A stretch of DNA of 43,115 nucleotides from a virus. This document shows positions 1-42,156 of the stretch, in pieces (position 1 is the first letter of the stretch; each line of letters opens with the position of its first letter). Below the pieces are notes generated by a model. That model had not been told where the DNA came from, did not search any database, and saw only the letters and a list, made by a program, of their open reading frames with translations. The translations under genes were made by a program, and so were the position numbers. The stretch lies in IMG/VR virus record IMGVR_UViG_3300027797_001672, positions 1 to 43,115 of that record; one strand, given 5' to 3'.

Positions 1-235
1 CTGGATCTGGAGTCGTTGTTGTAACGGGTGTTGGGCTCGGCTCTGGTGTAGGGGTTGGTGTAGGTGTGGGCGCAGGTGTAGGTGAAGGTTCTGGTGTTGG
101 TGTGGGAGTTGGTGTAGGTGTAGGTTCTGGTGTTGGCGTTGGTGTTGGCGTTGGTGTTGGTGTAGGTTCTGGTGTTGGCGTTGGCGTTGGTGTAGGTTCT
201 GGTGTTGGCGTTGGTGTTGGCGTTGGTGCTACATA
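1..235 (-). repeat. Tandem repeat coding the Pro-Thr-(Glu) linker
   Basis: Short imperfect repeats of GGTGTTGGCGTT type on the plus strand, read on the minus strand as CCA-ACA/ACG-CCA with periodic CCA-GAA-CCT (Pro-Glu-Pro). It codes an extended, probably disordered linker of roughly 75 residues within the window. Repeats of this type change length easily by slippage. The plus-strand reading gives a meaningless Val-Gly polymer. Confidence 0.85.
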
Positions 236-1093
236 TGTAGCACCAGTAACAACATTTGAATTTGCAGAGTAAAGGGCAAATGTGTCGTTATCTGATCTAA
301 TATGAAATGACCATACTGTTCCTGCGGGGCGAAGGCCGTCTAGCAAGGAGTGATCAATTGTAATTGTTGTGTTTAAAGAATTTGGTCCGCCAACATTTCC
401 AGTTGCGATTCCCCAGCCATTACACCCAGAGCAATTAAAACTTATAGCATATCTTTCTGGCTGTGTGTTGCCAGTATCGGGTGCTTCCCAAACCAAAACT
501 GTTGATGTCTCATTGCTAGATATAGTTAAATTTCTTGGGGCTCCAATGGTTTTAACAACTGTTGGTGTCACAGATAAAGAGGCATTAGTAAATATAGTTC
601 CGTAGCATCCAGCCCAGCCTAATCCGTCTGTTCCGCTTATTGTTATTGTTACATTTTCATTTGGAGATGTGGTAGTTAGCGAAAGGGTTTTATTAATACC
701 ACTGGTTGAATAGTTGCCTCCCGTTGAAATATTTTGATTAGAATCTTGAATCCTTATTGTAGACTGGGCTCCAGGAACATCTGATCTATTCCGAGCATTT
801 ACTGTAAAAACAACTGCAGATGGCTGAGATATTGTTACTACTTGAGTAACTGGCGTGTTAACATACGACATAACAAGTGCATCGTCATCCCAAGCGCCCA
901 TACTTGGACCACCATTGTCGCAGGAGGCATTATTGTTTGCTGAGCCAGTGATATTTGCTCCAGACCACCCGCCGCCAGTTGATGAAAAAGATCCGTTTAT
1001 TAGTGTGTCTGCAGCATTAGCTTGGGAGGGACCAGAAAAAAGCCAACCCACTGAGAGTAGGAAGGCTGTAAATATTCTTAACTTCTTAGTCAA
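1..1093 (-). CDS. Secreted beta-sandwich/Fn3 protein with Pro-Thr linker (partial, runs off left edge)
   Basis: Open for 364 codons from a TTG at 1093-1091 to the window edge, with no stop. The TTG is preceded by GGAGGT (1101-1106) at a 7-base spacing, an excellent ribosome binding site. The N-terminus is a classic signal peptide: MTKKLR, a hydrophobic core, then a probable cut after SQANA. Residues about 28-175 ([13 protein letters not shown] start, Thr/Ser-rich strands) look like a galactose-binding or carbohydrate-binding beta-sandwich. Residues about 178-285 ([15 protein letters not shown]) resemble an Fn3 domain. From about residue 288 comes a PTPTPEPT-type linker. Such linkers join domains in exported actinobacterial proteins. 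It is the last gene of the FmdB/dehydrogenase string but has its own -10 element. Role unknown; a secreted glycan-binding protein made in infected cells, or a decoration or adhesion protein, are possible. The C-terminal domain is outside the window. Confidence 0.85.
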
Positions 1094-1136
1094 CTAAGGG
1101 ACCTCCAGGTAATGCAATATTTTTGCTTACCTGTTA

Positions 1137-1945: not shown

Positions 1946-2352
1946 TATTTTTTAGATTTAGCCCTAGCCTTAGCAAGAGCATCAAAATCTTTTACTTTAG
2001 TATCTCCTAGGTATCCCCAAGCATGCCCGTCCGTAATCATCTGCTCATTTATAGATATGGTTTGATCATCAATAAATAGCCATCCAAGTATTCTTCCATA
2101 CTTTTCTGAGGAGTCCATCTTTTCAGTTTTTATCTTTACATTTTTTGCATCTTTTAATTTAGACTTAAGGTATTCTTTTGCCTCAAGACCTAACTTTTTT
2201 TCTGCCAAGTCTTTTGTTCTTGACTCTGGCGTATCAATACCAGCAAGCCTGACTCTTGATGCAAATAATATATCAAAACCAAGGTCGATGAGGACATCAA
2301 TTGTGTCCCCATCAACTACGGCTTCTACCTTCTTAACGTAGTATTCGTACAT
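1945..2352 (-). CDS. Staphylococcal nuclease-like (SNase) endonuclease
   Basis: 135 residues covering a complete SNase-like OB-fold domain. Conserved blocks are AVVDGDTIDV (about residues 11-20), RLAGIDTPE (about 36-44, holding the first catalytic Arg and the Glu) and KYGRILGWLF (about 84-93, holding the second catalytic Arg), so the catalytic set appears intact. Family members cut DNA and RNA in a calcium-dependent way. No signal peptide is visible, so action in the infected cytoplasm is likely, for example on host nucleic acid. It lies between the endolysin and dehydrogenase genes with TAATG overlaps at both ends. The C-terminus is Lys/Ala-rich. Confidence 0.85.
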   Translation of the reverse strand: MYEYYVKKVEAVVDGDTIDVLIDLGFDILFASRVRLAGIDTPESRTKDLAEKKLGLEAKEYLKSKLKDAKNVKIKTEKMDSSEKYGRILGWLFIDDQTISINEQMITDGHAWGYLGDTKVKDFDALAKARAKSKK

Positions 2353-2927
2353 TACTTCTTCTTAACTACGGCTTTCTTTACTGGGGCTGCCGCTTTTTTA
2401 ACAACTGGCTTTCCAAATTTTGGTCTTCCAAATCCTACAATTCCTACGATCTGGCTTCTGCGAAGCTTTGATCCGTTCTTCTTTTTGTAAGCACGATTCT
2501 TAAGGCAACACTCTCCACCATTTCTTTGATCGCCCTTCTTATCTGAAGATGTATTTCCTTCTACAACATCTACTGTTCCGTCAGTATTGACTGCGACAAC
2601 AATTCCCACATGAGAAATTCTATCGACGCCATCTGATGGGAAATCAAAATAGGCAATATCTCCTACTTCTGGTGTTGCTACTTCTGCCATCTGCCATGTA
2701 CCTGCTTTAATAAATGCCTGTGCTCCCGCTGGTGTGTAAACCGTGTTAGGAATCTTTACGCCAGCCTGATCTGCCACCCACATACAGAAACTTCCGCACC
2801 ATGGTTGAAAGTTTGATTTTGTAAACTTACCATACTTTGTTTCATTTTCTTTTGGACCCTCGATAGTGCCAACTTCTGCTAGTGCTACCTCTACTAATCT
2901 TGCTGCCGTACCCTGTTCTGCTGCCAT
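2352..2927 (-). CDS. Endolysin, CHAP-domain peptidoglycan hydrolase
   Basis: 191 residues. A CHAP cysteine peptidase/amidase fold spans about residues 10-170: catalytic Cys in QPWCGSFC (about 41-48), His in SHVGIVV (about 105-111), and an acidic/Asn position in VVEGNTSS. CHAP enzymes cut peptidoglycan peptide or amide bonds. The last 30 residues are a Lys/Ala/Pro/Val tail (KPVVKK, KKAVVKKK), which may bind anionic cell wall or membrane instead of a folded wall-binding domain. No signal peptide is seen. The start has AGGAGAAG at good spacing and is the first gene after the tRNA cluster. No holin with clear membrane spans is adjacent. Confidence 0.85.
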   Translation of the reverse strand: MAAEQGTAARLVEVALAEVGTIEGPKENETKYGKFTKSNFQPWCGSFCMWVADQAGVKIPNTVYTPAGAQAFIKAGTWQMAEVATPEVGDIAYFDFPSDGVDRISHVGIVVAVNTDGTVDVVEGNTSSDKKGDQRNGGECCLKNRAYKKKNGSKLRRSQIVGIVGFGRPKFGKPVVKKAAAPVKKAVVKKK

Positions 2928-2978
2928 TTTACTTCTCCTATTGTATATTTGGTATTAAAGTATTAGTATACCATTTAG

Positions 2979-3051
2979 TGCCTCCAGTTGGTTTCGAACC
3001 AACGACCCGCAGATTAAAAGTCTGCTGCTCTACCAGCTGAGCTATAGAAGC
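2979..3051 (-). tRNA. tRNA-Lys (UUU)
   Basis: A 73-base cloverleaf: acceptor GCTTCTA pairs with TGGAGGC (two G-U pairs), the anticodon stem GCAGA/TCTGC closes a CTTTTAA loop, and the T-arm GTTGG/CCAAC holds TTCGAAA. The anticodon UUU reads AAA/AAG. CCA is not encoded. It is last in the four-tRNA cluster and 52 bases before the endolysin start. Confidence 0.93.
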
Positions 3052-3055
3052 TTTG

Positions 3056-3128
3056 TGCCCCCCACTGGATTCGAACCAGTGCTGTATGGATTTTAAGTCC
3101 ACTGCCTCTACCGCTGGGCTAGGGGGGC
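3056..3128 (-). tRNA. tRNA-Leu (UAA) with short variable region
   Basis: The acceptor GCCCCCC/GGGGGGC is perfectly paired, the anticodon stem GTGGA/TCCAT closes a CTTAAAA loop (anticodon UAA), and the T-arm ACTGG/CCAGT holds TTCGAAT. Only about five bases separate the anticodon stem from the T-stem, so the long variable arm expected of bacterial tRNA-Leu is missing. The D-stem is weak (about three pairs). CCA is not encoded. It may be charged unusually or misread; the UAA anticodon itself is clear. Confidence 0.85.
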
Positions 3129-3132
3129 GACG

Positions 3133-3205
3133 CCCCCTCGGCACGATTCGAACGTGCGACGCAGGCCTTAGAAGAGCCTCGCTCTATCCTCTGAGCTACG
3201 AAGGG
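3133..3205 (-). tRNA. tRNA-Arg (UCU)
   Basis: Acceptor CCCTTCG/CGAGGGG (one G-U), D-stem GCTC/GAGC, anticodon stem AGGCT/GGCCT around CTTCTAA (anticodon UCU, reads AGA/AGG), T-arm GCACG/CGTGC around TTCGAAT. The first pair is C-G rather than G-C. CCA is not encoded. Confidence 0.92.
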
Positions 3206-3209
3206 ATTG

Positions 3210-3283
3210 TGCGACAGGTAGGACTCGAACCTACGATTACCGAATTATGAGTTCGGGGCTTTAACCAACTAAGCTACTGTCGC
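3210..3283 (-). tRNA. tRNA with CAU anticodon (elongator Met or lysidine-type Ile)
   Basis: Acceptor GCGACAG/CTGTCGC is fully paired, anticodon stem CCGAA/TTCGG encloses CTCATAA, and the T-arm GTAGG/CCTAC encloses TTCGAGT. The G1-C72 pair argues against an initiator. Elongator tRNA-Met and tRNA-Ile2 (CAU modified to read AUA) share this loop, and I cannot separate them by eye. It is first in the cluster, about 10 bases after the -10 of the cluster promoter. Confidence 0.92.
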
Positions 3284-28847: not shown

Positions 28848-29533
28848 TAAACTTCTTCCAGTGCTATAGATACATCCCAGAATTCTTGCGCCTCTGGCAG
28901 AACCGTAACGGCAGATGCCGTTGATGAGGCAGGTGTTCCAGATATAGTTCCTGCAACAGTAAATGATGTTGGGGTAGCTGCTGTAACAGTAAATACTCCA
29001 TTATACGCTGCAAATGTTGCTCCTGATACTTTAACTTTATTTCCAACTGCAAAACTATTTTTACCAGTATATGTTGTTACTGCGCTAGCGTATGATATTG
29101 CGGTTATACTTGAATTTTTAAATACCCCGCCCGTTCTTAAGTTTCTTTTTGTAACAGTAAAGCTGCAAGAGGTGAACGACATCATCATTGTTTTCTCTCT
29201 TGAAGCCACTCCGTTTGGAGAAACCTTTACATTAAATGCACCCTGTCCAGCAACTGATTCATAAAACTCTTTAATGTTCATAGCTCCCCAAGCCCCATCT
29301 ACTGTCATAGAAGCATAGGTCGGTAAGCCTATCCAGCTGACTGAGAGGATGTCTTTGTCAGCAATAAATATTTTTCTTAATGTTCCATTTGACATTCTCT
29401 GGGTTTTTTCAATTCTCTGTATATCCAATGTAGCGCTTGCTCTATTGTGCTCGCTTAATGCCTGCCAGACTACAGGAGTAACCGATGTGTTTTCAAATGT
29501 TATAAGAGATCCAAGCGGAAGGGTTAGTGCCAT
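28847..29533 (-). CDS. Distal tail-like protein
   Basis: 228 residues directly after the tape measure gene, the usual place of the distal tail protein. It starts with a beta-rich domain (ITFENTSVTPVVWQALSEH, LRKIFIADKDILSVSWIG). About residues 145-205 form an inserted repeat-like domain (GNKVKVSGATFAAYNGVFTV, SFTVAGTI) of the type seen in phage surface proteins. The end (EAQEFWDVSIALEEV) returns to the core. TAATG junctions at both ends. Confidence 0.75.
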   Translation of the reverse strand: MALTLPLGSLITFENTSVTPVVWQALSEHNRASATLDIQRIEKTQRMSNGTLRKIFIADKDILSVSWIGLPTYASMTVDGAWGAMNIKEFYESVAGQGAFNVKVSPNGVASREKTMMMSFTSCSFTVTKRNLRTGGVFKNSSITAISYASAVTTYTGKNSFAVGNKVKVSGATFAAYNGVFTVTAATPTSFTVAGTISGTPASSTASAVTVLPEAQEFWDVSIALEEV

Positions 29534-32500
29534 TATTTAACTCCTACTGTCATTGGTATGCCAGACATTTTAGAATTGCGGGAATCAAGAGTCTTGATTG
29601 CTGTGATAGTCTTCTGTGTTACTATATTTGACAATTGATTTATATCCCCATCGAATCCATTAATGTTATTTGTAATATTATATGTTGCTCCACCCATTGT
29701 AGCATTATTAGCGTTTGGATTAAAGGGGTTCATGTTAGCAGGAACAACTGCTTCATTCTTATGAAGCATAGCAAGCATATCTACAGGAACGCTATTTATT
29801 CCAGTTTCAAATTTAGGTATCTTAAGTTTGCCCCCGCTTACGTACCCCCCAGTTGCTCCTCTAAATACATCGTCATCTAGTAAATCTGTAATCTGAGCTA
29901 TTTTTACCATAAATTCTTTATTGGATATAGCGCCATTAGCATACTGACTTATAATTGAGTCTCGCATTACTTTTAGGTCATTCTCATTTGGGTAAATTTT
30001 TCCACTTTGGTATTTTCCAAAACGTGTCCACATTAGAAGCGCATCTAAAGCTTTTTGAGTGGTGCTAATTCCAGGACCAATTTCTCCTATTGAAGTTCTA
30101 TATGTATTAAGAATAGAGCTAAAAGGATTGTTTCCTGAGCCCCTAGCCAACATATCTATGTCACTAGAATTATGACCACCATCAAACCTTACTCCAAGCT
30201 TAGCTGCCATTTCCATTATTGTTGCTTCATTTAAAGATTGATGCTCTCCGCCTACGGCGTATGAGTACGGTTGATCTATTCCAATTTGTTTTTTTGCTTT
30301 ATCAATTGCTAATATTTGCAAAGCTCTTTGAGCGCTTTGACCTGCATCTCCCTCATAAGGATTTCTTGCTGGGGCATAGAAATCTTGATCTCCGTACATT
30401 CTTACATGATCTGGGTCAGTCTTTTTGGCTGGGTCGAACTGCTCTATTGGCCTTAAGTTTTTATTTCCATTAACTTCTTTTAGTATTTGATCAAGCTCTA
30501 CTTGAGAGTATTTTTCTTTTGATAAATAAAATATTTCTTTTGTTGAAGGATTTTCTGCCATTACTGGAAGAGGTCCTCCGTCTTTGTGCAACCCAAGCTC
30601 TGTTAATTTTTTAATGTACGCTGCTTCTTCAAGTGGAAATACTGAGCTGAGCTTTCCTTCTTTTTTGCTGTAATGGAATGGCTTGCCAAATCCTTGCAAG
30701 AAATAGCTATCGTTTGAATGAAGCTGTTCTGGCTTACCGTTATATTTCATTAAATTAGAAAGTGTACTTACTATAAATGGCTTATCTGGTTTCCATGCGC
30801 CCTGCATATGAGATTGAACTGCATCATAAATTCCAAAGTGTCTTGATGTTCTAGCTATGGAATGTGAGGCAGCGTCATCGGTTCCAGCAACTGAACCCTT
30901 TGGCCCTACAAATCTATCAAATATTTTAAATCCTGCAGCTGTTTCAAAAAGATCTCCTTGTCCGTCTGTTTTTGGAAACTCATCATTAAACACTCTTATC
31001 ATTGGAATATCGTCTGGCGTCGTAGGAATATAGTATGGTTCCATTCCTCGTGCTCTGTAGGCTGCAATCTCTGCTCTAGTTAAAGGTTCTTCTCCGCGAT
31101 TTCCAAAGAATCCACCTCGTAGGCCGCCATTGTATTCAGTTCTTGCATCTGCTGCTATTTTTGCCAACCTGGCATTCTCTGCATACTCTGCAGCCATTCT
31201 AGAAAGTATTGGTGACATTGCTTTTGTTTTAGATTTAATAGCAATGGAATCTTTTGCATTGCCTCGCATTGCAGAAATTAATTGAACAAGCCCTTCTGAG
31301 CTTGAAGAGTTTGTTATAGCGTATGGGTCAACATTTTTTAAATTCACATTACCTGCTGCTAGCATATTCATTAAAAATTCTTTTACGTCTCTATCGCCCC
31401 ATTGATATCCTGAATTCATTTTGTCCAGCAGGTCTTGAGCTTTTTTGTTTGAAGGATCTTTTTTCAAAACATAGGACAGTATTCCCTCTGGGGTTGTAGG
31501 TATAACAGCAGAAACCTGATGATTTGTTAACAATGAACTTAAGTTTTCATCTATTCCTTGGAATACAACAGCATCATTTCCAAAAGGTCCTCCTGAATAA
31601 AGTGGTACGCTCATGCCTTCATGCAATACGTATGGAGGATAAACAGTGTTTGGTTTAAACTGTTCTGCAGTAACTTTTACCTTTGGCTTTTGTATTGTTG
31701 GTGCTAGCTTGCTTTCAACAAATGGCCTTGCTCCGCCAATTACTGCAGCAGTTGCTGTGTTTGTCGCAAGCTTTGATCCTGCTGCTCCAAGGAATGGGAA
31801 TGAGCCCTTTGGCAACAAGGCGCCAAGCCCTGGTATTCCTTTTGAAATTCCCAACTGCTCAATAAATGCTCTTCCAAATGCGGTTGACACTGTGCCGCTT
31901 AATCCAGCAGTCAATAGGTTTAGTCCACCAGTCACCCATTCGCCTGTTTTAAAATCTTTTCCTGTGCTGTCCATCTTGGAAGCATTTGGACCAAAAGTCA
32001 TTGTTAATATTTTACTGGTTATGTCTTCGTGAATTGCACCAGTTCCTCCTCCATTTTGAAAGAGGCCTTTCCAGTTTGATGCCGTTGTGTATTTTTCCCA
32101 TTGAGAAGGGCCCTTTTTAGTCCATTCCCCATTTTTATTCTTATAGTAATCAGGATTTTTCTCATACAATTTGTCCATTGCTTTAGAGTTTGCTGCAGCT
32201 TTTGCTGGACTTAATGCACTCATGCTCGGACCTGAGTAAGGTGCTTTGTAATTACTTGCCATATGCCCTGCACTCAAATGCTTATGTCCTACTGCTCCAC
32301 CCTTATGAAATTTGCCAGGAAGCTTTAAGTCTAATAAATACTTTACATTTTTTTCAAGTATTGTGCGTAGAACTCTTAGCTGACCCTCATCAGTTATTCC
32401 GCTCTTAGTTAAAATATCATCTATGAATTTCTCTGGGCCTTGCTTGGCTATTGACTTTCTTACAGAAGAGAAGCCTTTAGTAAATTGAGAAGCTTGCTTT

Positions 32501-35500
32501 CCAACCAGCTCGCTGCCAGCTTTTAATGCTGTCTCGGCTGGGTTAGCTAAATTATCTATTATTCCCCAGTCAAATGCTCCAAGAGTTTTTTTGCCCTTAA
32601 GCAGTAGGTTTCCTGGATGCATGTCTCCGTGCCCTAGTATAGATGAAACTGCTTTCATCTTTCCAAAGCTCTTCATTGAAGCATTGGCTTTAAGCCAATC
32701 CATGTCAAGGAATCCATGTGGCAACATCGCACCAGCGTCTTCTAGTGTTTTCATTCCCTTTGATGCAAAATCTTTACTTAATACGGCAGATATATTATTC
32801 CAAGTGCCTAAGATGTTGTCGGTACTTGGCATTTTAAATCTTTTAGCTATTGTGGAACCAGTTACTTCCAATGCACCTTCCATTACATCCTGCATAATCT
32901 TCATGTAATGTACAGATCCATCAGCGGCTTTCATTATAGATGGCCTTGACTTTCCTGCTGTAGCCTTTCCTATATTTATTAAATCATCAAAGTTTCCAGC
33001 CTTTAGCTTTTGTCCAACTTTAATTGCTGTAGGGATTTGTTTGATTGATTGTAATGATTTAGGAATTGCTTTTAATGCTTTAGGGATTGCTTTTATTCCC
33101 TTAATGCCAGCTTTAATTGCTGCTGGTCCGACAAACCAAGAGGCTATGGATGTGTAGTCATTCCATTTGCTTTCGCCTGAATATATGTTACTTACAGACT
33201 GCATAAAGTCTCTTCCACCAAGTTCTAGAAGTACCTTTCCTGCGGGGGTATATTCTGCGGCAGTTCCATAAATGTCAAATGCTTTATGAACAAATTTAGA
33301 CCAATCAGACCTTGTGCTCGGATCTGAGGCTGCTGAAGGGCCTAGGAACTTCCAGAATCCAGTTGCTCCAGGGACTCCATTGGTTTCAGCACTTGAAGTG
33401 TTTCCAAGATTCATACCTTGCTCTTCACGCCATTGATCTACTGTCTTATACTTACTCTTAGGCTTTGGTAAATTTCTTCCGTGACGATGACCCACTTCGC
33501 CACCTGTGTGGAATCCAATAGCTTTTTTAATTTTCTTAAATAGCTTACCCCAGTTGACAGTTGACTGCATTGATCCGCCAGATGTTAACGTGCCATTGGT
33601 ACCAATTAGCTGTCCACTTGAACCGAGCATTCCTCCGCCTTCAATGGAACCTCCGCCTTCAAGTCTGCCTTTACTTAAAAATGTTTGATGCTTTTCTGGA
33701 ATAAACTCTGGATAAATTGTTTTATATTTATCAGGCAGGAATAATTCTGCTCTTCTATTTTTAGCTCTGTTCTCAGCAGTTGTATTTGGAACAAGAGGTC
33801 TGTACTCCCCGTATCCCACTGGCGTAAATGCTGTACCAGGAACAAACTTTGACATGTACTCTGCAATAGCGTTTGCTCTATTTTGTGAAAGGATCTTGTT
33901 GTCTTTTCCTTTACCTACAGAGTCTGTGTGTCCTTGAACAACTATTGATGCTAGCTTATGCTTAATAAGATCTTTAGCAATTGCCTGAAGTTCTAGTCTT
34001 TGTTCTTTATTTAATGTGTAAGAGTTTGTAGCAAAATTAGCTGTAATAGGCGGAACTTCAATTTTAATAACCTGCTTATTAGCATCTTGCCATGCTTCTA
34101 TTGGGCCCATCAATTTTCCGCCTTGATGATCTACATTTACAGTTGTTGATCCATTTCCAAATGAGCTCTTGTGATCAGATTGAGCAGTTGGTTTTATAGG
34201 TCCGCCCGCTGCATATTTACCAGCATTTAGTGCATCAAATGTGTCTACTCCATACTTAGCTACGGAGTCTGCTTTAATTACATATTCACCATTTGATAAG
34301 TAGGCTGGGATAGAATCAGATGTTGCAGTTCCTGCTCCCCTAATATGTCCACCATCTGCTCTGTTATACGGGTTACTAGTTCTTTCTATGCTTCCATTAT
34401 CTCTAACTTTAAAGGTAGAAATCTTTCCGTCTTTGTCTGTTACAGAGAAAAATTCACCAGGATTTACCCCTCTTTCTTTTGCAAGTGCCTCAAGTCTCTG
34501 GCTTATTCCCCACGGGCCCCAGTCTTTTCTACCATTACCATAGCTGTCTAAAGAAGCTCCTGATATAGTTGTTGTACCTGTTCCAGCTTTCCCAAGATTG
34601 TATGGGTCTGACCTAGTGCCGCTTCCAGAGTCTGGACCAATATTTAATCTTTTGCCATCAATATTTATAATCACATTTCCGTTAACATCAATTGTACTTA
34701 ATGCACCAAGCTTGCCTTCAAGGCTAGCAACCATTGCAGCGCCTAAGTCTAGATCTTTTAATCCATTAAGTTTAACCCCAGCCTTTTCTGCTGCGTCAGC
34801 AACTGCTGCAAGCATCTTCTTTGACTGTTCGCCCGTCTTCCAAGCTTGTCTTTCTGCTTCTGGCTTCTTTAGCAATTCTATTTGCCAGTTAAGCATCGCA
34901 GTATTTACTTCTGAAATTGCACTTTCAGTATCGGTAATTTTGCCACTCAAATCGCCAAGCTTTTCTCCTGCCAACTGAGCATTATCTGAGATATCTTGCT
35001 GCTTACTCTGTATAGCCTCAATTAGTTTTTGAAGGGGAATATTCTTTAGAATATTTGAATCTTCAATTGATTTTCTTTGTGCGTTATATTGAAGCTCACT
35101 TTGGTATCCTTGTATATCAAGGCTTGCTTGTTGAGCACCAGCAATGTTTCCAGTTGCAAGTGCGGCATCATATTCTGCCTGCTTCTTTGCAATCTCTCTT
35201 CCTATATCGCCTTCTTGCTTTGCTGCATCTAGCGCCTTAAGTCTTGCATCTGCAAGTTTATTGTTTGCATCTATTTGTTTTTGAAGTGAGGCAATCTTAT
35301 CTCTGTCTGATATTTGATCTGCGACAGATTGTCCTCTTGCCGCTTTTTGGTATTTTGCTTGTTGCTGCAACATTCTGTTGAGATCAGCATATTGCTTTTT
35401 TAATACGCCTTCTCTGTTGGCAGATTCAACTTTTTTACCTAAAGATATCTGAAGGTTATAAAGATCATTTGTTTGTTCTGCGTTAAGGGCCCTTAAGTCT

Positions 35501-38500
35501 CCAGTGTATCCCTTAACCTGAATTCTTGTTTTTTGCCATAAAGATAAAGCAGTTTCTTGCTCGTTAACAATTTGTTTAATTGATGGGTCAATTTTTGCCA
35601 TCTCATCAACGACCTCTTTGGTTAAGTAAACTTGATCTTCAATTTCGCTATTAATTTCGTCAATAGCAGCCTGTTCTTGATCAAGCATTAATTGCTTTTC
35701 TTGACCACTTGAAAAGTATGTTCCCTCCTTAGCTGCTTTTTTACGTGCTTCCTTTAAGGCTTTTGCTTGTCTAGACTCGACATCCGTAGACAAAGCCATC
35801 ATTGCAGTATTTAGCTGATTTGCTTGTTCTGTGGCATTACGGTTAGTTCCCATTGCAATAGTCAAACTATCAATTGCAGATGCTGCAGCAGACGCTGTAT
35901 CTTTTATGTCATTAAATCCTTGTGATCGAACTGTGTAGGCTGCCGCATTTGCTGATTGGTCTGATAATGCGTACATCGTATATATCTTTTTAGCCGCATC
36001 TTCTGCTGACATGCCCATAGCAATTAACTGTTCTTTAAGTCTTATGGCAAGCTCTCTTTGTTTTTGTGCTTGTTTTTCTGGATCTTTATCAACTGTTTGA
36101 TTAATTAAATCTACTTGATCAGAATAATTAGTTTTAACTTCTTTTTTTAACTTTTTATACTCCTCAATAGTTACATCTATAGGTGTTCCAGACCCTTGCA
36201 TGCTTTCGTATAAAAGAGTATTTCTTTCTTTCAATGCCTTTGCATTATTGATCGCTTCTTTGATTTTGTCATTAAAGTTTGTAAACTTAAGGCCTGCTTT
36301 TTCTGCAGCTTCTGCAGTCATGCCATATCCTAATGCATTTAGTCTAAGGGCTTCTTTGTGAGCCTGCCATCTATCCCACGCAATCTTTCCTACTGTAGCA
36401 ACTGTGCCGAGTGCAAGATTAAATCGTGTAAATATACTTAATGATTTTCCGAGTGCTTTGCTGAAAAGGTTTGAGCTTCCAGTTAGCTTGCTTAACATTG
36501 TTCCGTATTTAGTTAACTGTGGTGTACCAAGAACTTTATTAGATCCAACTGCAAACATTGGAGTTCTTGCTTTTACAAATTTATCGCCCATAATGCTTGT
36601 GCCTTTTCCTGCACCTGCATTCATCATATTTCCCATAGCCAAGAATGGAAGGATTGATCCAACTTGTTTAATTACATCTCCGCTGGTTCCGCCAACTTTA
36701 TCGCCAGCATAATTTGCACCTTGCTGTATTCCAAAAAATAATAATAGCTGCTTTAGCATTGGGACTATTCCACCAAACCTAAAGCCATTTGGAATAGATC
36801 CGCCAGCCTTATATCCATTTGGAATTATTCCACCAGCATTTCTTGGAACAAATAGTTCTGGCCCCTTCTCTCCAACAATGTATGGCTGGCCTGCATTAAC
36901 TGGTCCGCCCATTTCTCTTTTTTCTATTCCGAAAACCAACTGCTTTAAAGTTTCTGTTAGTGGTGTATCTTTTTTAGATTCCCAGTTTGCAAACTTCTTT
37001 CTAAGAATTTCTCTATCTATAGCAGAAAGAACTTTTCTTCCTTCTGGTGCAGACAGTGTTGAGGAAGCCGCAGATCTTATTACAGAATCCATGACCTCTG
37101 GCTCTACTGCTTTTATTAAATGGCCCTGTGCGTTCTTAGCATATCCATATGGCATTTCTTTAGCAAGTGATGCAGCAAATTTATCATAAAGAATTCTTTG
37201 CGTTCTCTTTGTTAATCCAGTAGATCCAAAAAGCTTTTCAGCCATTCCTATCTGTAAGGATGTTACTCCCCATCCGCCAGTAGAATCTTTTCCAAATCCT
37301 GCGCCGATTCTATGCATTGCTTTGCCTTTTGTAATTGCTTCAAGCAATCCACCAAATCTAAATCCATTTGCATCAGTTTTAAATGCATTGTCTGACAGAC
37401 TTGCTGAATGACCAGTTTGTCTACGCTTTAGTTCATCTGCCGCCACCATCTTTGCTATAGCCGCTGGTGTCATTTGTTTTTCTGGTGACATCTGTAGGCC
37501 AGAGTGAATTCCGTGTAGCTCTTTCCAGTTGACTCCTCTTGCATCAGATAGTCTTTTAATCATTGCTTCATAAACAACTTTTTCTTCTGGGTTTAAATCA
37601 AATCTTGAAACTGTCTGCTTGAGCTTTGGTAAAGCACTTTCAATCTCTTTAAGCATACGGCCATGATATTCATCTGCTGTCATACCTTTTGGTATTTGAT
37701 GAGTTGACTCAGCAAAGAATTTCTTAGCTCCGCTCCCTTTTCTTCCCAATAGATTTATATAAGCCTGATCTTTTACTGACGGCATAACAGCTGAGTACCC
37801 TCTAAGCCCAGATGCTGCTGAGAATACTCCAGCTGGCCCCACGTCTGAAAGAATGTTTCCAGATAAATTACCTCTTGCTAAATCTTTGTCTCCACGTAAA
37901 GCTGATGCGACTAGCTGTCTAAAGTATTCGTCTGTAGTAAATTTAGCATCTGTTGCTGCAATCTTTGGATCAAATTTAGATTCTAGTGCTAACAGCCTTC
38001 TTCTGCCAGTTGGATCGGTAGGGTCTCTCATTACAACAACTTTTTGTGTTGGAGCATGTAATCCATGAACCTCACGAGCAATTTGTGTTGCTCTCATTTC
38101 TGCAACTGCTGCTCTTTCGTCTAATACTGGTTTTACGAATACTTTTTCGTCGCCCTTCATATAGAGTCCACCAACTCCTGGAACGGGGAAGCTGCGCCCT
38201 GAAGTAGGGGATAGCAGTTCTCCGTATTGAGTTACTGGAGTCTTTGCAAATCTAGAATTGGTAACTGCCTCGTTTGCTTTTTCCATTGCAGCTCTTTTTG
38301 CTCTTTGTTCTTCAACTTGTTTTATAGTTTTAGGCATGCCAATAAAGAAAGGCTTACCGTATCCATATCTTCCTTTTGCTACGGTTCCTCCAAGAACTTT
38401 TCCGCCTGTATTTAAACTTTCAATTCTTGCAGTATATAGAGACCCTATTCCGTCTTTTAATTCTCCAGAGGCAGTTACGCTTCTTCCTGCTTGTCTACCT

Positions 38501-41500
38501 CTAACTGTTCCGTAAGAAAGAAGTTCGTCAAAGAAATTTGAATTATTTCCTCCGCCAACTTTATTTAAATGTCTTCTTAAAATTCTTTCTGCAAACATTT
38601 CAAATGTGTCGTCTGGACCAAAGTTTGGCTTTGTGCGAGATTTTCCTCTGCCACGTAATGCTGTGATCAATGATCTGTATGCTTTCATAAATTGAGCTGG
38701 GTTTCCGCTATAACCTAAATTTTCTGCAGCTGATCTCATAATCACCATCGGATGAATTGGTACACTTTCTAGGTCATCTGCAAAGGCTGATGCGTTTCCA
38801 CCGCTAATTGCTTTTTTGTTTGCACTTGATGACTGAGGACCCATTGCCCCTGGTACAAAATAATCATCTGATCCTTCTATGCTTCTCTTACCTGAAAAAT
38901 GGCCCTTCTCAATTCCCTTCCAAAGTCCTTTAATTTCTTTGTCAGTCATCTTTTCAAGATCACTAGGCTTATAGAAACCACCTGTTTTTGGATTTGGATA
39001 AAGTCTGCCAAACATTGTCATACTTTCATCTAGCCACTGACGTTGTCTGGTTGCGTTACCGCCAGTTTTTGTATCAAAGAAAGCTCTTGCAAAAACCTTT
39101 GATCTTCCTTCTGGTATATACCTAGCTCCTAGCTTTCTTACCATTCCTGGAATAATTGACCCGCCAAATACTCTTCCCATTCCAGATGTATTTCCAGGTC
39201 CGCCATTTAATTCATACATCAAAGGCATATTTCTTTTTGCAATATTCGCTGGTATGACTGCTTCTCCAGGTGTTAATACAACTGGGACTTGTCCGCCTTC
39301 TTGTGCATAATAAGACTTGCCTCCAAGTATATTTGTTATTAACGGAAGATGCTTTTCAGTTGCAGCTTTATTAATTACAAATGCGCCAGGCTCTGCTGTG
39401 GTGTGGTAGGTATCTGTGTCACCAGTTCCTGGGACAAAGCCTCCTTTTGCAAACCTTGGCTTTGTTGTTTCAATGTTATATCCAGCACCTGATGTTCTTA
39501 CGCCACCGAGAGCTCTTGCAATTCTATCAACCATTGCTTTTGTAGGGCCCTTATGAAACATTTCTTTCATATTAGATTTGCCTGTAGCTGGATCTACAAC
39601 TGGCTGAGAAGTAAGTGGTACTGTGGTAAGGTTTGCTGTTCTGCCCATTCCTGCTGCAGTTAATCTTGTTGTTTCTGCAAGCATTGCTTCAACAGTTGCA
39701 TTTAATGAAATAATTCTTGCTCTAGCTTGTTCTACAGTTATTTTACTTTGTTGAACTTGCTGTACGATTGCTGCAGTTTCTTTTGCGGCAAGGTCTGTTA
39801 TCTGACTAAACTCTGGGAGTAGTGCTTGATATGAATCGGATAAACTTGATGTAACAGTTCCTGTTGCCATAACTTCTGCTTTTAATATTTTAAGTTCTGC
39901 TTCAGATTGCATAGCAATAGCAGCTGTCATAGCATGCCATTTTGCAGCCTCTGCTGCAACAATTCCTGTGGAGGTTCCACCTACTGATGTTAGGCCAGGT
40001 ATCTTTGGAAGATCTCCATCCATATAGGCCTGTGGGTTTCTACCAACTCTTATGTTTACTGGCTTTGCTCCTGGAACTGTTCCAAATATTGTTCCTTCTT
40101 GTGGATTGCCAGAAGGGATCAAATGAGACATATCTCTTGAATATGGTCTACCGACTAGGGGGTTATTTTTATCTACTACTCTGCCTGAACCGCCTGCTGC
40201 CATAATTACTCCGCCTGCAACTGTTGATACTGCTGGCTGAACTGCTACCTTTGCTGCATTTGCTTTTGTTTCTAAGTTTATAAAAGATTCAGCTAAAGTA
40301 TTTACTGCATTAGATAAAACAATAGTTGCTTCTGTGTCTGAGTAGAATGAGGTGGCTAATCCTTTAGCTGCAGCATCTGCGGCTATGATCTCTGGCGTTA
40401 GAAGCCTGAACCCTTGACCGCCTTTTGCAAGTTGTCTTAAGTGGAATATTCCCTTAACTACGTAACCAATAAAGTTACCCATTACACCAGCCATCATAAT
40501 TAGTGGACCAGCTATTGCAGTTAATCCTCCCAATACGTTTAGTAATGTTTTAACTGGCTCGGGAAGCTTTTGGAAAAACTTTATAATTGCGTCAACAACT
40601 TTTAAGACCTTTGTGCTTATTCTTAAAAATTGCTCTCCTGCCCCAGCAAGATCTGCTTGTACTGATGCCCAGGCTCTTTTAAATTGTCCAGAGGCTGACT
40701 CTGTCATCATCTTTAATTCTCGCTCTGAGATTGCTGCTAAATCTGTCACGCTTGCTTTCATTAAGTCCATAACCTGAAGTGTCTGTGATCCAGACTTTCC
40801 TAGGTTTTCAAACAGAGCTGACATTCTTGCAAACTGGAACTTACCAAATAGTTGTTCAATTGCTCTAGATTTATCTAGCGGATTAAGATTGTCTAGTGCG
40901 GCCTGCAATGATAATATTGTTGCAGTTAGATCACCAGCATTATTATTTACAATACCCTTTAGATCAATTCCAAATCCAGCGAACTGCTCTGTTGCAACCT
41001 TGGTTGGGTTGATAAGTGATGCCATTGCTGACTTAATTGCGTTTGCGCCTTCTGATGCATTTACTCCACCTTCTTTCATTGCAGTAAGGTAAAGTGCTAA
41101 ATCTTTTACGTCTCCGCCAAGAGATTTGATTACTGGACCTGCTTTTGGAATAGCTTCTGTTAAATCTGCAAGGCTTGTTGATGTCTGGTTTTCAACTGCG
41201 TTGAGGAAGTCAATTGATTGGGCTAGTTCATCGGTGCTCTGCTTAAAAGCATTTTGAATTGCAAGAGTTGCTTTCATAGCATCTTGTCTATCAACTTCAC
41301 CAAGTACTGCAAGTCTTGTTGTTTGCTGTGTGGCGGCAATTAAATCATTGCCCTGTTGCCCTGTTGCTGCTAAGTCTGCAGCAAGTGCGATTGTTTCTTT
41401 ATATGCAACGCCATAAGAGCTAGCAATTTCTCTAGCTGTTGCAGTAACATCTTTTCTTACTTGTGCTAAATCTGCAGATGAAGTTGCGGCAAGACCGCCA

Positions 41501-42156
41501 TAAACCTTTGTTAGTCTTACTAGCTCTGCATCTGCTTCTCTAAATGCTTTTTGGGCTGCTGCTCCAAACATAACTAGCGGAACTGTTAGTCCTACTGTTA
41601 GCTGTCGTCCCGCCCACTGTGTATTTTTACCCCAGTTGATAAGTCCTGTTGATCCATCAAGCATGACCTTATTCATGATTGCAGCTTCTTGTCTAGCAAT
41701 CGCCATCTTGTTCTTTATTTCATCAAGACCTTTTGCAACCATTACGTTATATTGCATATGGCCTTGTGCGTTTTTACCCACAGGCTGTACTATTGCTTGC
41801 TGAAGCATTACTTGCTGCTTAGCAAGATCTCTAATTAATGAGCTTGTTTTCTTTGTATGGCCGCTCCAAGCATTATAATAATCGTTGAGCTTGAGGCGAC
41901 CCCTATCTAAATTCTTACCGAACTTGTCTACGTCTGAAGATAGTGATACAAAGTGTTGAGAGAACTGGCCTGTTGATGTAAGCGTTGTAGCAAACGACTT
42001 GTTCATCACTGCAATTTGGTTTGCAAGCTTTGCGTTTGTTCCCGCTGTTGTTTCTTGTAACTTTACGAGTTGGGCAGTAACCGCAGCTAGTTGAGCTCTT
42101 AGGCTCGTGAAGTCTGCGTGGGCTGTAATATTGGTCGTTATTATATTATCTGCCAT
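29533..42156 (-). CDS. Giant multidomain tail tape measure protein
   Basis: 4,207 residues. The N-terminal coiled coil leads into a TP901-type tape measure core (about 190-455: LVRLTKVYGGLAATSS, SLADLTEAIPKAGPVIKSLG), then a hydrophobic stretch (about 535-575). Later regions: kinase-like segment 1 (about 1320-1440), hydrophobic region (about 1790-1870), long coiled coils (about 1990-2430), OmpA-like domain (about 2700-2806), kinase-like segment 2 (about 3065-3210), and an unidentified globular region (about 3450-4000). Gly-rich motifs ending in GEAVIPAN or GEYVIKAD recur. It sets tail length and is delivered into the host. No Shine-Dalgarno precedes the ATG; the sequence there is an AT repeat. 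The frame is open throughout. Confidence 0.93.
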   Translation of the reverse strand: MADNIITTNITAHADFTSLRAQLAAVTAQLVKLQETTAGTNAKLANQIAVMNKSFATTLTSTGQFSQHFVSLSSDVDKFGKNLDRGRLKLNDYYNAWSGHTKKTSSLIRDLAKQQVMLQQAIVQPVGKNAQGHMQYNVMVAKGLDEIKNKMAIARQEAAIMNKVMLDGSTGLINWGKNTQWAGRQLTVGLTVPLVMFGAAAQKAFREADAELVRLTKVYGGLAATSSADLAQVRKDVTATAREIASSYGVAYKETIALAADLAATGQQGNDLIAATQQTTRLAVLGEVDRQDAMKATLAIQNAFKQSTDELAQSIDFLNAVENQTSTSLADLTEAIPKAGPVIKSLGGDVKDLALYLTAMKEGGVNASEGANAIKSAMASLINPTKVATEQFAGFGIDLKGIVNNNAGDLTATILSLQAALDNLNPLDKSRAIEQLFGKFQFARMSALFENLGKSGSQTLQVMDLMKASVTDLAAISERELKMMTESASGQFKRAWASVQADLAGAGEQFLRISTKVLKVVDAIIKFFQKLPEPVKTLLNVLGGLTAIAGPLIMMAGVMGNFIGYVVKGIFHLRQLAKGGQGFRLLTPEIIAADAAAKGLATSFYSDTEATIVLSNAVNTLAESFINLETKANAAKVAVQPAVSTVAGGVIMAAGGSGRVVDKNNPLVGRPYSRDMSHLIPSGNPQEGTIFGTVPGAKPVNIRVGRNPQAYMDGDLPKIPGLTSVGGTSTGIVAAEAAKWHAMTAAIAMQSEAELKILKAEVMATGTVTSSLSDSYQALLPEFSQITDLAAKETAAIVQQVQQSKITVEQARARIISLNATVEAMLAETTRLTAAGMGRTANLTTVPLTSQPVVDPATGKSNMKEMFHKGPTKAMVDRIARALGGVRTSGAGYNIETTKPRFAKGGFVPGTGDTDTYHTTAEPGAFVINKAATEKHLPLITNILGGKSYYAQEGGQVPVVLTPGEAVIPANIAKRNMPLMYELNGGPGNTSGMGRVFGGSIIPGMVRKLGARYIPEGRSKVFARAFFDTKTGGNATRQRQWLDESMTMFGRLYPNPKTGGFYKPSDLEKMTDKEIKGLWKGIEKGHFSGKRSIEGSDDYFVPGAMGPQSSSANKKAISGGNASAFADDLESVPIHPMVIMRSAAENLGYSGNPAQFMKAYRSLITALRGRGKSRTKPNFGPDDTFEMFAERILRRHLNKVGGGNNSNFFDELLSYGTVRGRQAGRSVTASGELKDGIGSLYTARIESLNTGGKVLGGTVAKGRYGYGKPFFIGMPKTIKQVEEQRAKRAAMEKANEAVTNSRFAKTPVTQYGELLSPTSGRSFPVPGVGGLYMKGDEKVFVKPVLDERAAVAEMRATQIAREVHGLHAPTQKVVVMRDPTDPTGRRRLLALESKFDPKIAATDAKFTTDEYFRQLVASALRGDKDLARGNLSGNILSDVGPAGVFSAASGLRGYSAVMPSVKDQAYINLLGRKGSGAKKFFAESTHQIPKGMTADEYHGRMLKEIESALPKLKQTVSRFDLNPEEKVVYEAMIKRLSDARGVNWKELHGIHSGLQMSPEKQMTPAAIAKMVAADELKRRQTGHSASLSDNAFKTDANGFRFGGLLEAITKGKAMHRIGAGFGKDSTGGWGVTSLQIGMAEKLFGSTGLTKRTQRILYDKFAASLAKEMPYGYAKNAQGHLIKAVEPEVMDSVIRSAASSTLSAPEGRKVLSAIDREILRKKFANWESKKDTPLTETLKQLVFGIEKREMGGPVNAGQPYIVGEKGPELFVPRNAGGIIPNGYKAGGSIPNGFRFGGIVPMLKQLLLFFGIQQGANYAGDKVGGTSGDVIKQVGSILPFLAMGNMMNAGAGKGTSIMGDKFVKARTPMFAVGSNKVLGTPQLTKYGTMLSKLTGSSNLFSKALGKSLSIFTRFNLALGTVATVGKIAWDRWQAHKEALRLNALGYGMTAEAAEKAGLKFTNFNDKIKEAINNAKALKERNTLLYESMQGSGTPIDVTIEEYKKLKKEVKTNYSDQVDLINQTVDKDPEKQAQKQRELAIRLKEQLIAMGMSAEDAAKKIYTMYALSDQSANAAAYTVRSQGFNDIKDTASAAASAIDSLTIAMGTNRNATEQANQLNTAMMALSTDVESRQAKALKEARKKAAKEGTYFSSGQEKQLMLDQEQAAIDEINSEIEDQVYLTKEVVDEMAKIDPSIKQIVNEQETALSLWQKTRIQVKGYTGDLRALNAEQTNDLYNLQISLGKKVESANREGVLKKQYADLNRMLQQQAKYQKAARGQSVADQISDRDKIASLQKQIDANNKLADARLKALDAAKQEGDIGREIAKKQAEYDAALATGNIAGAQQASLDIQGYQSELQYNAQRKSIEDSNILKNIPLQKLIEAIQSKQQDISDNAQLAGEKLGDLSGKITDTESAISEVNTAMLNWQIELLKKPEAERQAWKTGEQSKKMLAAVADAAEKAGVKLNGLKDLDLGAAMVASLEGKLGALSTIDVNGNVIINIDGKRLNIGPDSGSGTRSDPYNLGKAGTGTTTISGASLDSYGNGRKDWGPWGISQRLEALAKERGVNPGEFFSVTDKDGKISTFKVRDNGSIERTSNPYNRADGGHIRGAGTATSDSIPAYLSNGEYVIKADSVAKYGVDTFDALNAGKYAAGGPIKPTAQSDHKSSFGNGSTTVNVDHQGGKLMGPIEAWQDANKQVIKIEVPPITANFATNSYTLNKEQRLELQAIAKDLIKHKLASIVVQGHTDSVGKGKDNKILSQNRANAIAEYMSKFVPGTAFTPVGYGEYRPLVPNTTAENRAKNRRAELFLPDKYKTIYPEFIPEKHQTFLSKGRLEGGGSIEGGGMLGSSGQLIGTNGTLTSGGSMQSTVNWGKLFKKIKKAIGFHTGGEVGHRHGRNLPKPKSKYKTVDQWREEQGMNLGNTSSAETNGVPGATGFWKFLGPSAASDPSTRSDWSKFVHKAFDIYGTAAEYTPAGKVLLELGGRDFMQSVSNIYSGESKWNDYTSIASWFVGPAAIKAGIKGIKAIPKALKAIPKSLQSIKQIPTAIKVGQKLKAGNFDDLINIGKATAGKSRPSIMKAADGSVHYMKIMQDVMEGALEVTGSTIAKRFKMPSTDNILGTWNNISAVLSKDFASKGMKTLEDAGAMLPHGFLDMDWLKANASMKSFGKMKAVSSILGHGDMHPGNLLLKGKKTLGAFDWGIIDNLANPAETALKAGSELVGKQASQFTKGFSSVRKSIAKQGPEKFIDDILTKSGITDEGQLRVLRTILEKNVKYLLDLKLPGKFHKGGAVGHKHLSAGHMASNYKAPYSGPSMSALSPAKAAANSKAMDKLYEKNPDYYKNKNGEWTKKGPSQWEKYTTASNWKGLFQNGGGTGAIHEDITSKILTMTFGPNASKMDSTGKDFKTGEWVTGGLNLLTAGLSGTVSTAFGRAFIEQLGISKGIPGLGALLPKGSFPFLGAAGSKLATNTATAAVIGGARPFVESKLAPTIQKPKVKVTAEQFKPNTVYPPYVLHEGMSVPLYSGGPFGNDAVVFQGIDENLSSLLTNHQVSAVIPTTPEGILSYVLKKDPSNKKAQDLLDKMNSGYQWGDRDVKEFLMNMLAAGNVNLKNVDPYAITNSSSSEGLVQLISAMRGNAKDSIAIKSKTKAMSPILSRMAAEYAENARLAKIAADARTEYNGGLRGGFFGNRGEEPLTRAEIAAYRARGMEPYYIPTTPDDIPMIRVFNDEFPKTDGQGDLFETAAGFKIFDRFVGPKGSVAGTDDAASHSIARTSRHFGIYDAVQSHMQGAWKPDKPFIVSTLSNLMKYNGKPEQLHSNDSYFLQGFGKPFHYSKKEGKLSSVFPLEEAAYIKKLTELGLHKDGGPLPVMAENPSTKEIFYLSKEKYSQVELDQILKEVNGNKNLRPIEQFDPAKKTDPDHVRMYGDQDFYAPARNPYEGDAGQSAQRALQILAIDKAKKQIGIDQPYSYAVGGEHQSLNEATIMEMAAKLGVRFDGGHNSSDIDMLARGSGNNPFSSILNTYRTSIGEIGPGISTTQKALDALLMWTRFGKYQSGKIYPNENDLKVMRDSIISQYANGAISNKEFMVKIAQITDLLDDDVFRGATGGYVSGGKLKIPKFETGINSVPVDMLAMLHKNEAVVPANMNPFNPNANNATMGGATYNITNNINGFDGDINQLSNIVTQKTITAIKTLDSRNSKMSGIPMTVGVK

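Follow-up and report, generated by a model that had tools for sequence, protein, structure and literature searches.

What a phage might do with an exported protein whose gene lies among its lysis genes is the question raised by the left end of the window, by which we mean the whole 43,115-bp phage fragment from a virus record that was analysed. A minus-strand gene (1093→2) is truncated here, and its product was proposed, in a preliminary description of the sequence, not to be a standard virion or lysis part and to be able to act at the infected cell surface. The analysis supports this part of the proposal, and supports an exported protein with binding-type domains; the further suggestions, a block to superinfection and the binding of glycans, stand as hypotheses. 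The features needed for the argument are the following.

2..1093, minus strand: 5′ part of the surface-protein gene, 364 aa (ORF list; dN/dS; 128 IMG/VR relatives of the N-terminal half)
1101..1106, minus strand: Shine-Dalgarno sequence GGAGGT (ACCTCC on the plus strand), 7 nt upstream of the TTG at 1091-1093 (sequence)
1013..1093, minus strand: predicted signal peptide, residues 1-27, cleavage expected after ANA (sequence; family scan)
560..1012, minus strand: head domain, residues 28-178, a putative CBM/galactose-binding-like jelly roll (AF2 and VIA-align; low pLDDT)
848..949, minus strand: two-allele variable segment of the head, residues 49-82 (pN contrast between alleles)
242..559, minus strand: FN3-type domain, residues 179-284, common to PA14-headed relatives (sub-cut-off Pfam; VIA-align)
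2..241, minus strand: Pro/Thr-rich stalk with PT/PEP repeats, residues 285-364, continuing past the window (direct repeats D1)
3..272, plus strand: Val-Gly-rich open frame, antisense of the stalk and no gene (ORF list; linkers of relatives)
2352..2927, minus strand: CHAP-domain endolysin, the upstream neighbour (Pfam CHAP 1.8e-12; PHROG endolysin 4.4e-24)

The minus-strand frame encodes 364 aa from a TTG codon and runs off the contig end. Because the codon directly before this TTG is an in-frame TAG stop, the TTG is the first possible start, and the Shine-Dalgarno sites of relatives (AGGAG/GGGGG) are comparable to its GGAGGT. Against eight relatives the window gene differs by 38-72 synonymous and 15-34 nonsynonymous changes, and with a dN/dS of 0.098-0.162 the minus frame is evidently a gene on which purifying selection acts. 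The claim of a real gene with a TTG start, GGAGGT, a signal peptide, two β-sandwich domains and a PT-rich linker is thereby upheld (dN/dS 0.10-0.16), as is the warning that the plus-strand Val-Gly frame at 3-272 is misleading; this frame is merely the antisense of the PT linker and was rejected as a gene. The linker, whose repeat number the preliminary description had suggested comparing among isolates, varies in relatives in length from 58 to 88 aa and is missing from relative L004. The preliminary description had named closure of the frame just left of the window, or disrupted frames in close relatives, as grounds for abandoning the gene; full-length homologues instead reach 630-970 aa, and no disrupted frame was noticed except in the PA14-headed L076 (7488-8780), where the frame ends early in the coiled stalk, reflecting either a truncated gene or an assembly error at the contig end.

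These relatives supply the part of the protein that lies outside the window. A search with the N-terminal 289 aa returned 128 IMG/VR loci, 80 of which were fetched, and a search with the conserved C-terminal domain returned at least 579; IMG/VR contigs are mostly fragments, and 90 distinct full-length members were analysed, with counts that depend on HMM thresholds. Their common plan comprises a signal peptide, a head, often an FN3 domain, a stalk that is Pro-rich and/or Ala/Glu-rich and coiled, a conserved C-terminal domain of ~100 aa (LPPETPVEVRT...ITAEVA...GSIGADM), a hydrophobic helix and a basic tail. The signal peptide of the window protein was called from n-, h- and c-regions and an AxA site read from the sequence, and a scan of the family finds an N-terminal hydrophobic segment in 82 of the 90 members and AxA in 85. 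We infer that the window phage's own C-terminal half follows the family plan, since the N-terminal halves of L003, L008 and L013 are 89-95% identical to that of the window.

The C-terminal hydrophobic helix is present in all 90 members (best 19-mer Kyte-Doolittle 1.6-2.1), is only moderately hydrophobic and Ala/Val-rich in most of them, and leads into a Gly/Ser-rich tail with a mean net charge of about +3, compared with about −10 for the stretch before the helix. This contrast is a type I charge pattern (N-out/C-in), which would place the head outside and the tail inside. In L030, which terminates in 'VVVAAIIVGTIATLSIRRM', and in L033, the protein ends directly past a stronger TM helix. A search for an LPxTG motif or a membrane anchor had been suggested, and only the second half of it bore fruit, in the form of the helix found throughout the family; no LPxT[GASN] occurs in the last 80 aa of the 90 members, arguing against a sortase anchor, and no lipobox occurs in their first 60 aa, arguing against an Llp-like lipoprotein, so that both modes of anchoring were rejected. 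Judged by sequence, signal peptide, AxA site, C-terminal helix and basic tail mark the product as a phage-encoded protein exported to the host envelope. The earlier word "secreted" thus holds for export and probably not for release, given the helix and the basic tail, and the surface protein is probably a type I membrane protein rather than freely secreted. A model of the conserved C-terminal domain (pLDDT 65) has no significant match in the PDB; the best E was 0.15, and weak winged-helix-like matches occurred.

By predicted start site, the family almost never begins with ATG. ATG with a Shine-Dalgarno sequence is found in 3 of the 90 members and TTG in 29, while 46 have only ATT, CTG, ATC or ATA with a Shine-Dalgarno sequence before the signal-peptide core (ATT only in 35, CTG in 8). 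The family's two-TM partners, described below, do start with ATG. Such avoidance of ATG at the predicted start sites suggests low or regulated translation of the surface protein.

The outermost part of the protein is predicted to be a binding domain. The AF2 model of head plus FN3 domain is all-β with a mean pLDDT of only 53; in this model, residues 4-153 match CBM-type jelly rolls by Foldseek and VIA-align (Z 8-9.5), among them CBM16, CBM22, a porphyran-binding CBM and other jelly rolls, and residues 153-262 match FN3 domains or chains (VIA-align Z about 8). Toxin binding components also occur among the fold-search matches and were taken simply as more instances of a jelly-roll fold. At the sequence level the window head has no match in Pfam or the PDB, so that it is not assigned to a CBM family, and no PA14 match in Pfam is found in the window protein itself; its FN3-type domain, 88-96% identical in aligned relatives, gives Pfam Tissue_fac/fn3 matches below the cut-off only. 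PA14 is matched above the Pfam cut-off in relatives L030, L059 and L018. The heads appear to have binding folds, PA14 by Pfam and CBM-like by fold in a model of pLDDT 53. By HMM class, the 90 members divide into PA14 plus FN3 (51), PA14 within a coiled stalk (18), a window-type head plus FN3 (7), FN3 with an unclassified head (2) and proteins matching no head HMM (12), several of which contain a third β domain ('GGVTYNNVYVGSNATITFG') in the coiled stalk.

Heads and phage lineages do not travel together. Four head types occur among phages whose TerL is 94-97% identical to that of the window, and L003 carries a window-type head that is 95% identical, yet its TerL is only 77% identical. Judged from these comparisons of sequence, the heads are uncoupled from the phage backbone, an outer head being exchanged between phages on a constant base. 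Variation is also concentrated within the window-type head, where residues 49-82 exist as two alleles with a pN of about 0.24 compared with at most 0.07 elsewhere (Fisher p 1e-8 to 5e-11); because pS is raised in this segment too, segment exchange is as likely an explanation as selection on single changes. Each genome has one copy of the head, and the tail genes contain no copy at the sequence level.

Directly downstream of the surface gene lies a second component, a two-TM protein of 55-62 aa that is found in each of the 87 distinct loci for which 900 nt or more of downstream sequence is available, and in 7 of 7 records of 98 kb or more. In the 84 of the 90 members with a resolved junction its frame overlaps the surface-protein gene, by 7 nt in 67, 4 nt in 14, 8 nt in 2 and 1 nt in 1, with the partner ATG within the last codons of the surface-protein gene. 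The apparent absence of the module from some TerL relatives was traced to fragmentary contigs, which extend no further than about 9 kb from TerL. The core of the partner (DQxWTLLGMFIAWVVLDGSAK) is nearly invariant. In a distant family represented by DSL-LC01, L085 and L086, a homologous two-TM segment is fused in frame to the C-terminus, and in L084, which is 76% identical to DSL-LC01, this segment is a separate overlapping frame. The profiles of the two partner families match each other (hhalign probability 91.5%, P 8.6e-7), the partner HMM matches within the locus (E 2.5e-4), and the fusion supports a physical complex of surface protein and partner. For the C-terminal domains of the main and DSL-LC01 families, hhalign aligned 17 columns only, which does not establish homology. 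It is thus very probable that the module consists of a signal peptide, exchangeable head, FN3 domain, stalk, C-terminal membrane base and two-TM partner.

In 76 of the 87 loci the partner is followed by another two-TM gene, which is holin-like on the basis of a weak PHROG match and its topology. Relative to the surface gene, the CHAP endolysin is encoded upstream in the window clade and further downstream in the PA14 clade. The preliminary description had placed the gene after the lysis genes; its position is more exactly within the lysis region, with the partner and then, in most relatives, the holin-like gene following. Several other genes accompany the module. In the PA14 clade a second secreted family (MNSFKK..., Ig-like, S-layer-like) is encoded directly upstream of the surface gene, next to TerL, as in L018:6375-7421, L021:5546-7306 and their relatives, with a C-terminus such as YNALATKWNKKNPKAKVALKK. 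A subtilase with a signal peptide lies a few kb downstream of the module (L009:14375-15505, Peptidase_S8 6e-17; L003:14788-15954), and an HslV/proteasome-like peptidase (L003:13672-14226, PHROG 1040, 4e-19) is conserved downstream of it.

The best reading of this module, held tentatively and a little short of probable, is that of a display protein on the surface of the infected cell that masks the phage receptor; the masking function, taken by itself, is slightly more doubtful. The Sec pathway would export the surface protein, the C-terminal helix would retain it in the membrane in type I orientation, the partner would anchor or oligomerise it, and the stalk would carry the head through and beyond the wall. 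The head may then bind a host-surface glycan or protein that is the phage's own receptor, which is the less certain step. Infected and lysing cells, together with their debris, would thereby be masked against superinfection and loss of progeny, as proposed by analogy with T5 Llp, which masks the receptor in Gram-negative hosts and limits both, and head swapping would track the diversity of host surfaces. Against receptor masking count the often early production of superinfection-exclusion proteins, a lysis-gene neighbourhood that fits control of lysis as well, the only moderate hydrophobicity of the C-terminal helix in most members, the low confidence of the head model, and the position of this phage's own C-terminal half and partner outside the window.

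Control of lysis, or disruption of the envelope, is the main rival and on balance unlikely. Here the surface protein and its partner would regulate or assist the neighbouring holin, for instance by sensing the exterior, so that lysis is delayed once the head engages its ligand, or by disrupting the outer envelope. The holin-like gene downstream in 76 of 87 loci and the endolysin upstream in the window clade are in keeping with such a role, as is the combination of a constant part near the membrane with heads that vary, which suits a receptor-like signal, and actinophage lysis cassettes carry several TM proteins, such as LysF1a and LysF1b (PMC13056207). However, lysis itself needs no exchange of heads, in the PA14-headed clade the endolysin is not always a direct neighbour, and the partner resembles no known holin in Pfam or PHROGs, having no PHROG match and only a sub-threshold Pfam match to CdaA_N. 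Less likely again is a broader version in which the phage makes a cell-surface receptor whose membrane-proximal domain and two-TM partner relay an outside signal (crowding, or a second phage) to the neighbouring holin, thereby fixing when the cell lyses, or in which the module belongs to a general surface-conversion system that re-coats freshwater actinobacteria. That the protein is an adhesin, sticking infected cells or debris to neighbouring cells or particles for spread, aggregation or protection from grazing while leaving the phage receptor unblocked, is improbable: microbial adhesins likewise carry PA14, CBM-like and FN3 domains on a long stalk, and the secreted Ig-like proteins and subtilase of the same phages suggest wider surface remodelling, but the hosts are presumed to be free-living and planktonic. 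A virion component, such as a receptor-binding or decoration protein misread as secreted, is very unlikely, for while the heads resemble phage tail protein domains (Foldseek viral matches) and swap like host-range domains, a Sec signal peptide and a C-terminal TM helix are ill-suited to tail assembly in the cytoplasm, and the gene sits with the lysis genes, far from a tail cluster (about 20-43 kb) that holds no copy of the head.

Receptor masking invites comparison, by description, with T5 Llp and the lactococcal Sie proteins, which are likewise phage-encoded, exported, located at the envelope of the infected cell and presumed to act on the phage receptor; these are small proteins without the exchangeable lectin-like heads, stalk and obligatory two-TM partner of the present module. 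Microbial adhesins with PA14, CBM and FN3 domains share the head-stalk-anchor plan and binding folds, whereas the present protein is phage-encoded, has no LPxTG and is specified within a lysis region by a gene whose frame overlaps that for the two-TM partner. In cluster F1 phages, LysF1a has two TMDs (N-in/C-in), LysF1b has one (N-out/C-in), and both are required for efficient lysis (PMC13056207). This pair and the TM proteins of Gordonia phages (PMC9671378) resemble the module in combining a small N-in/C-in two-TM protein with an N-out/C-in protein beside lysis genes, but, compared by description with LysF1a/LysF1b, the N-out protein here is 630-970 aa long and has a signal peptide and a binding head. 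A further counterpart is WJZ48438.1 of Actinomycetia phage DSL-LC01 (OQ999401), a hypothetical protein whose FN3-type domain is 49% identical over 101 aa and which also has a signal peptide, a WAGNYGT-type head segment and a hydrophobic C-terminal helix; it differs in being a single fused polypeptide that includes the two-TM segment and in its combination of heads. Literature searches found no description of the module, which seems to be a widespread means, new to the literature searched, by which phages re-coat or sense the surface of their hosts.

Freshwater actinobacteria are among the most abundant bacteria of lakes, and their phages have barely been cultured. The presence of a two-gene module in hundreds of freshwater actinobacterial phage contigs would mean that phage proteins are routinely displayed on infected cells. 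Should the heads bind the phage receptor, they would offer a sequence-based handle on the surface structures that these phages use on uncultured hosts, and superinfection exclusion by surface display could be tested in Gram-positive hosts; lysis control, the alternative, could be tested directly as well, through the linked holin-like gene.

The proteins of the window are colinear with those of Streptomyces phage Faust (Stanwilliamsviridae) from the tail genes through DnaE, RecA, RuvC and terminase, with TerL 62% identical, and the module is absent from Faust (no HMM match with E ≤ 1). Relatives encode WhiB, the usual marker of actinophages (PMC10202952), and the host is an actinobacterium, presumably from freshwater. 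Two scans of 84,980 species genomes, in which an FN3 plus C-terminal chimera and the neighbouring Ig-like secreted family served as queries and patterns were few and short, found no cellular relative. Elsewhere in these genomes, the interval between TerL and endolysin carries variable cargo in L100, L160, L101 and L111 (carbamoyltransferase-, GDSL-, peroxiredoxin- and kinase-like, by eye). In the window, the minus-strand gene at 1349-1945 occupies a cargo slot that varies between relatives and encodes the NAD-binding domain of a D-2-hydroxyacid dehydrogenase without most of the flanking catalytic domain, and four tRNA genes (Lys, Leu, Arg, Met; 2978-3283, minus strand) lie between a 2OG oxygenase and the endolysin. 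The tape measure protein (29533-42156, minus strand) is 4207 aa long, about twice the length of Faust's, and contains an OmpA domain (1.7e-18) as well as, at residues 3169-3206, a sub-threshold ABC1/APH kinase-like motif (HGDMHPGNLL...DWG).
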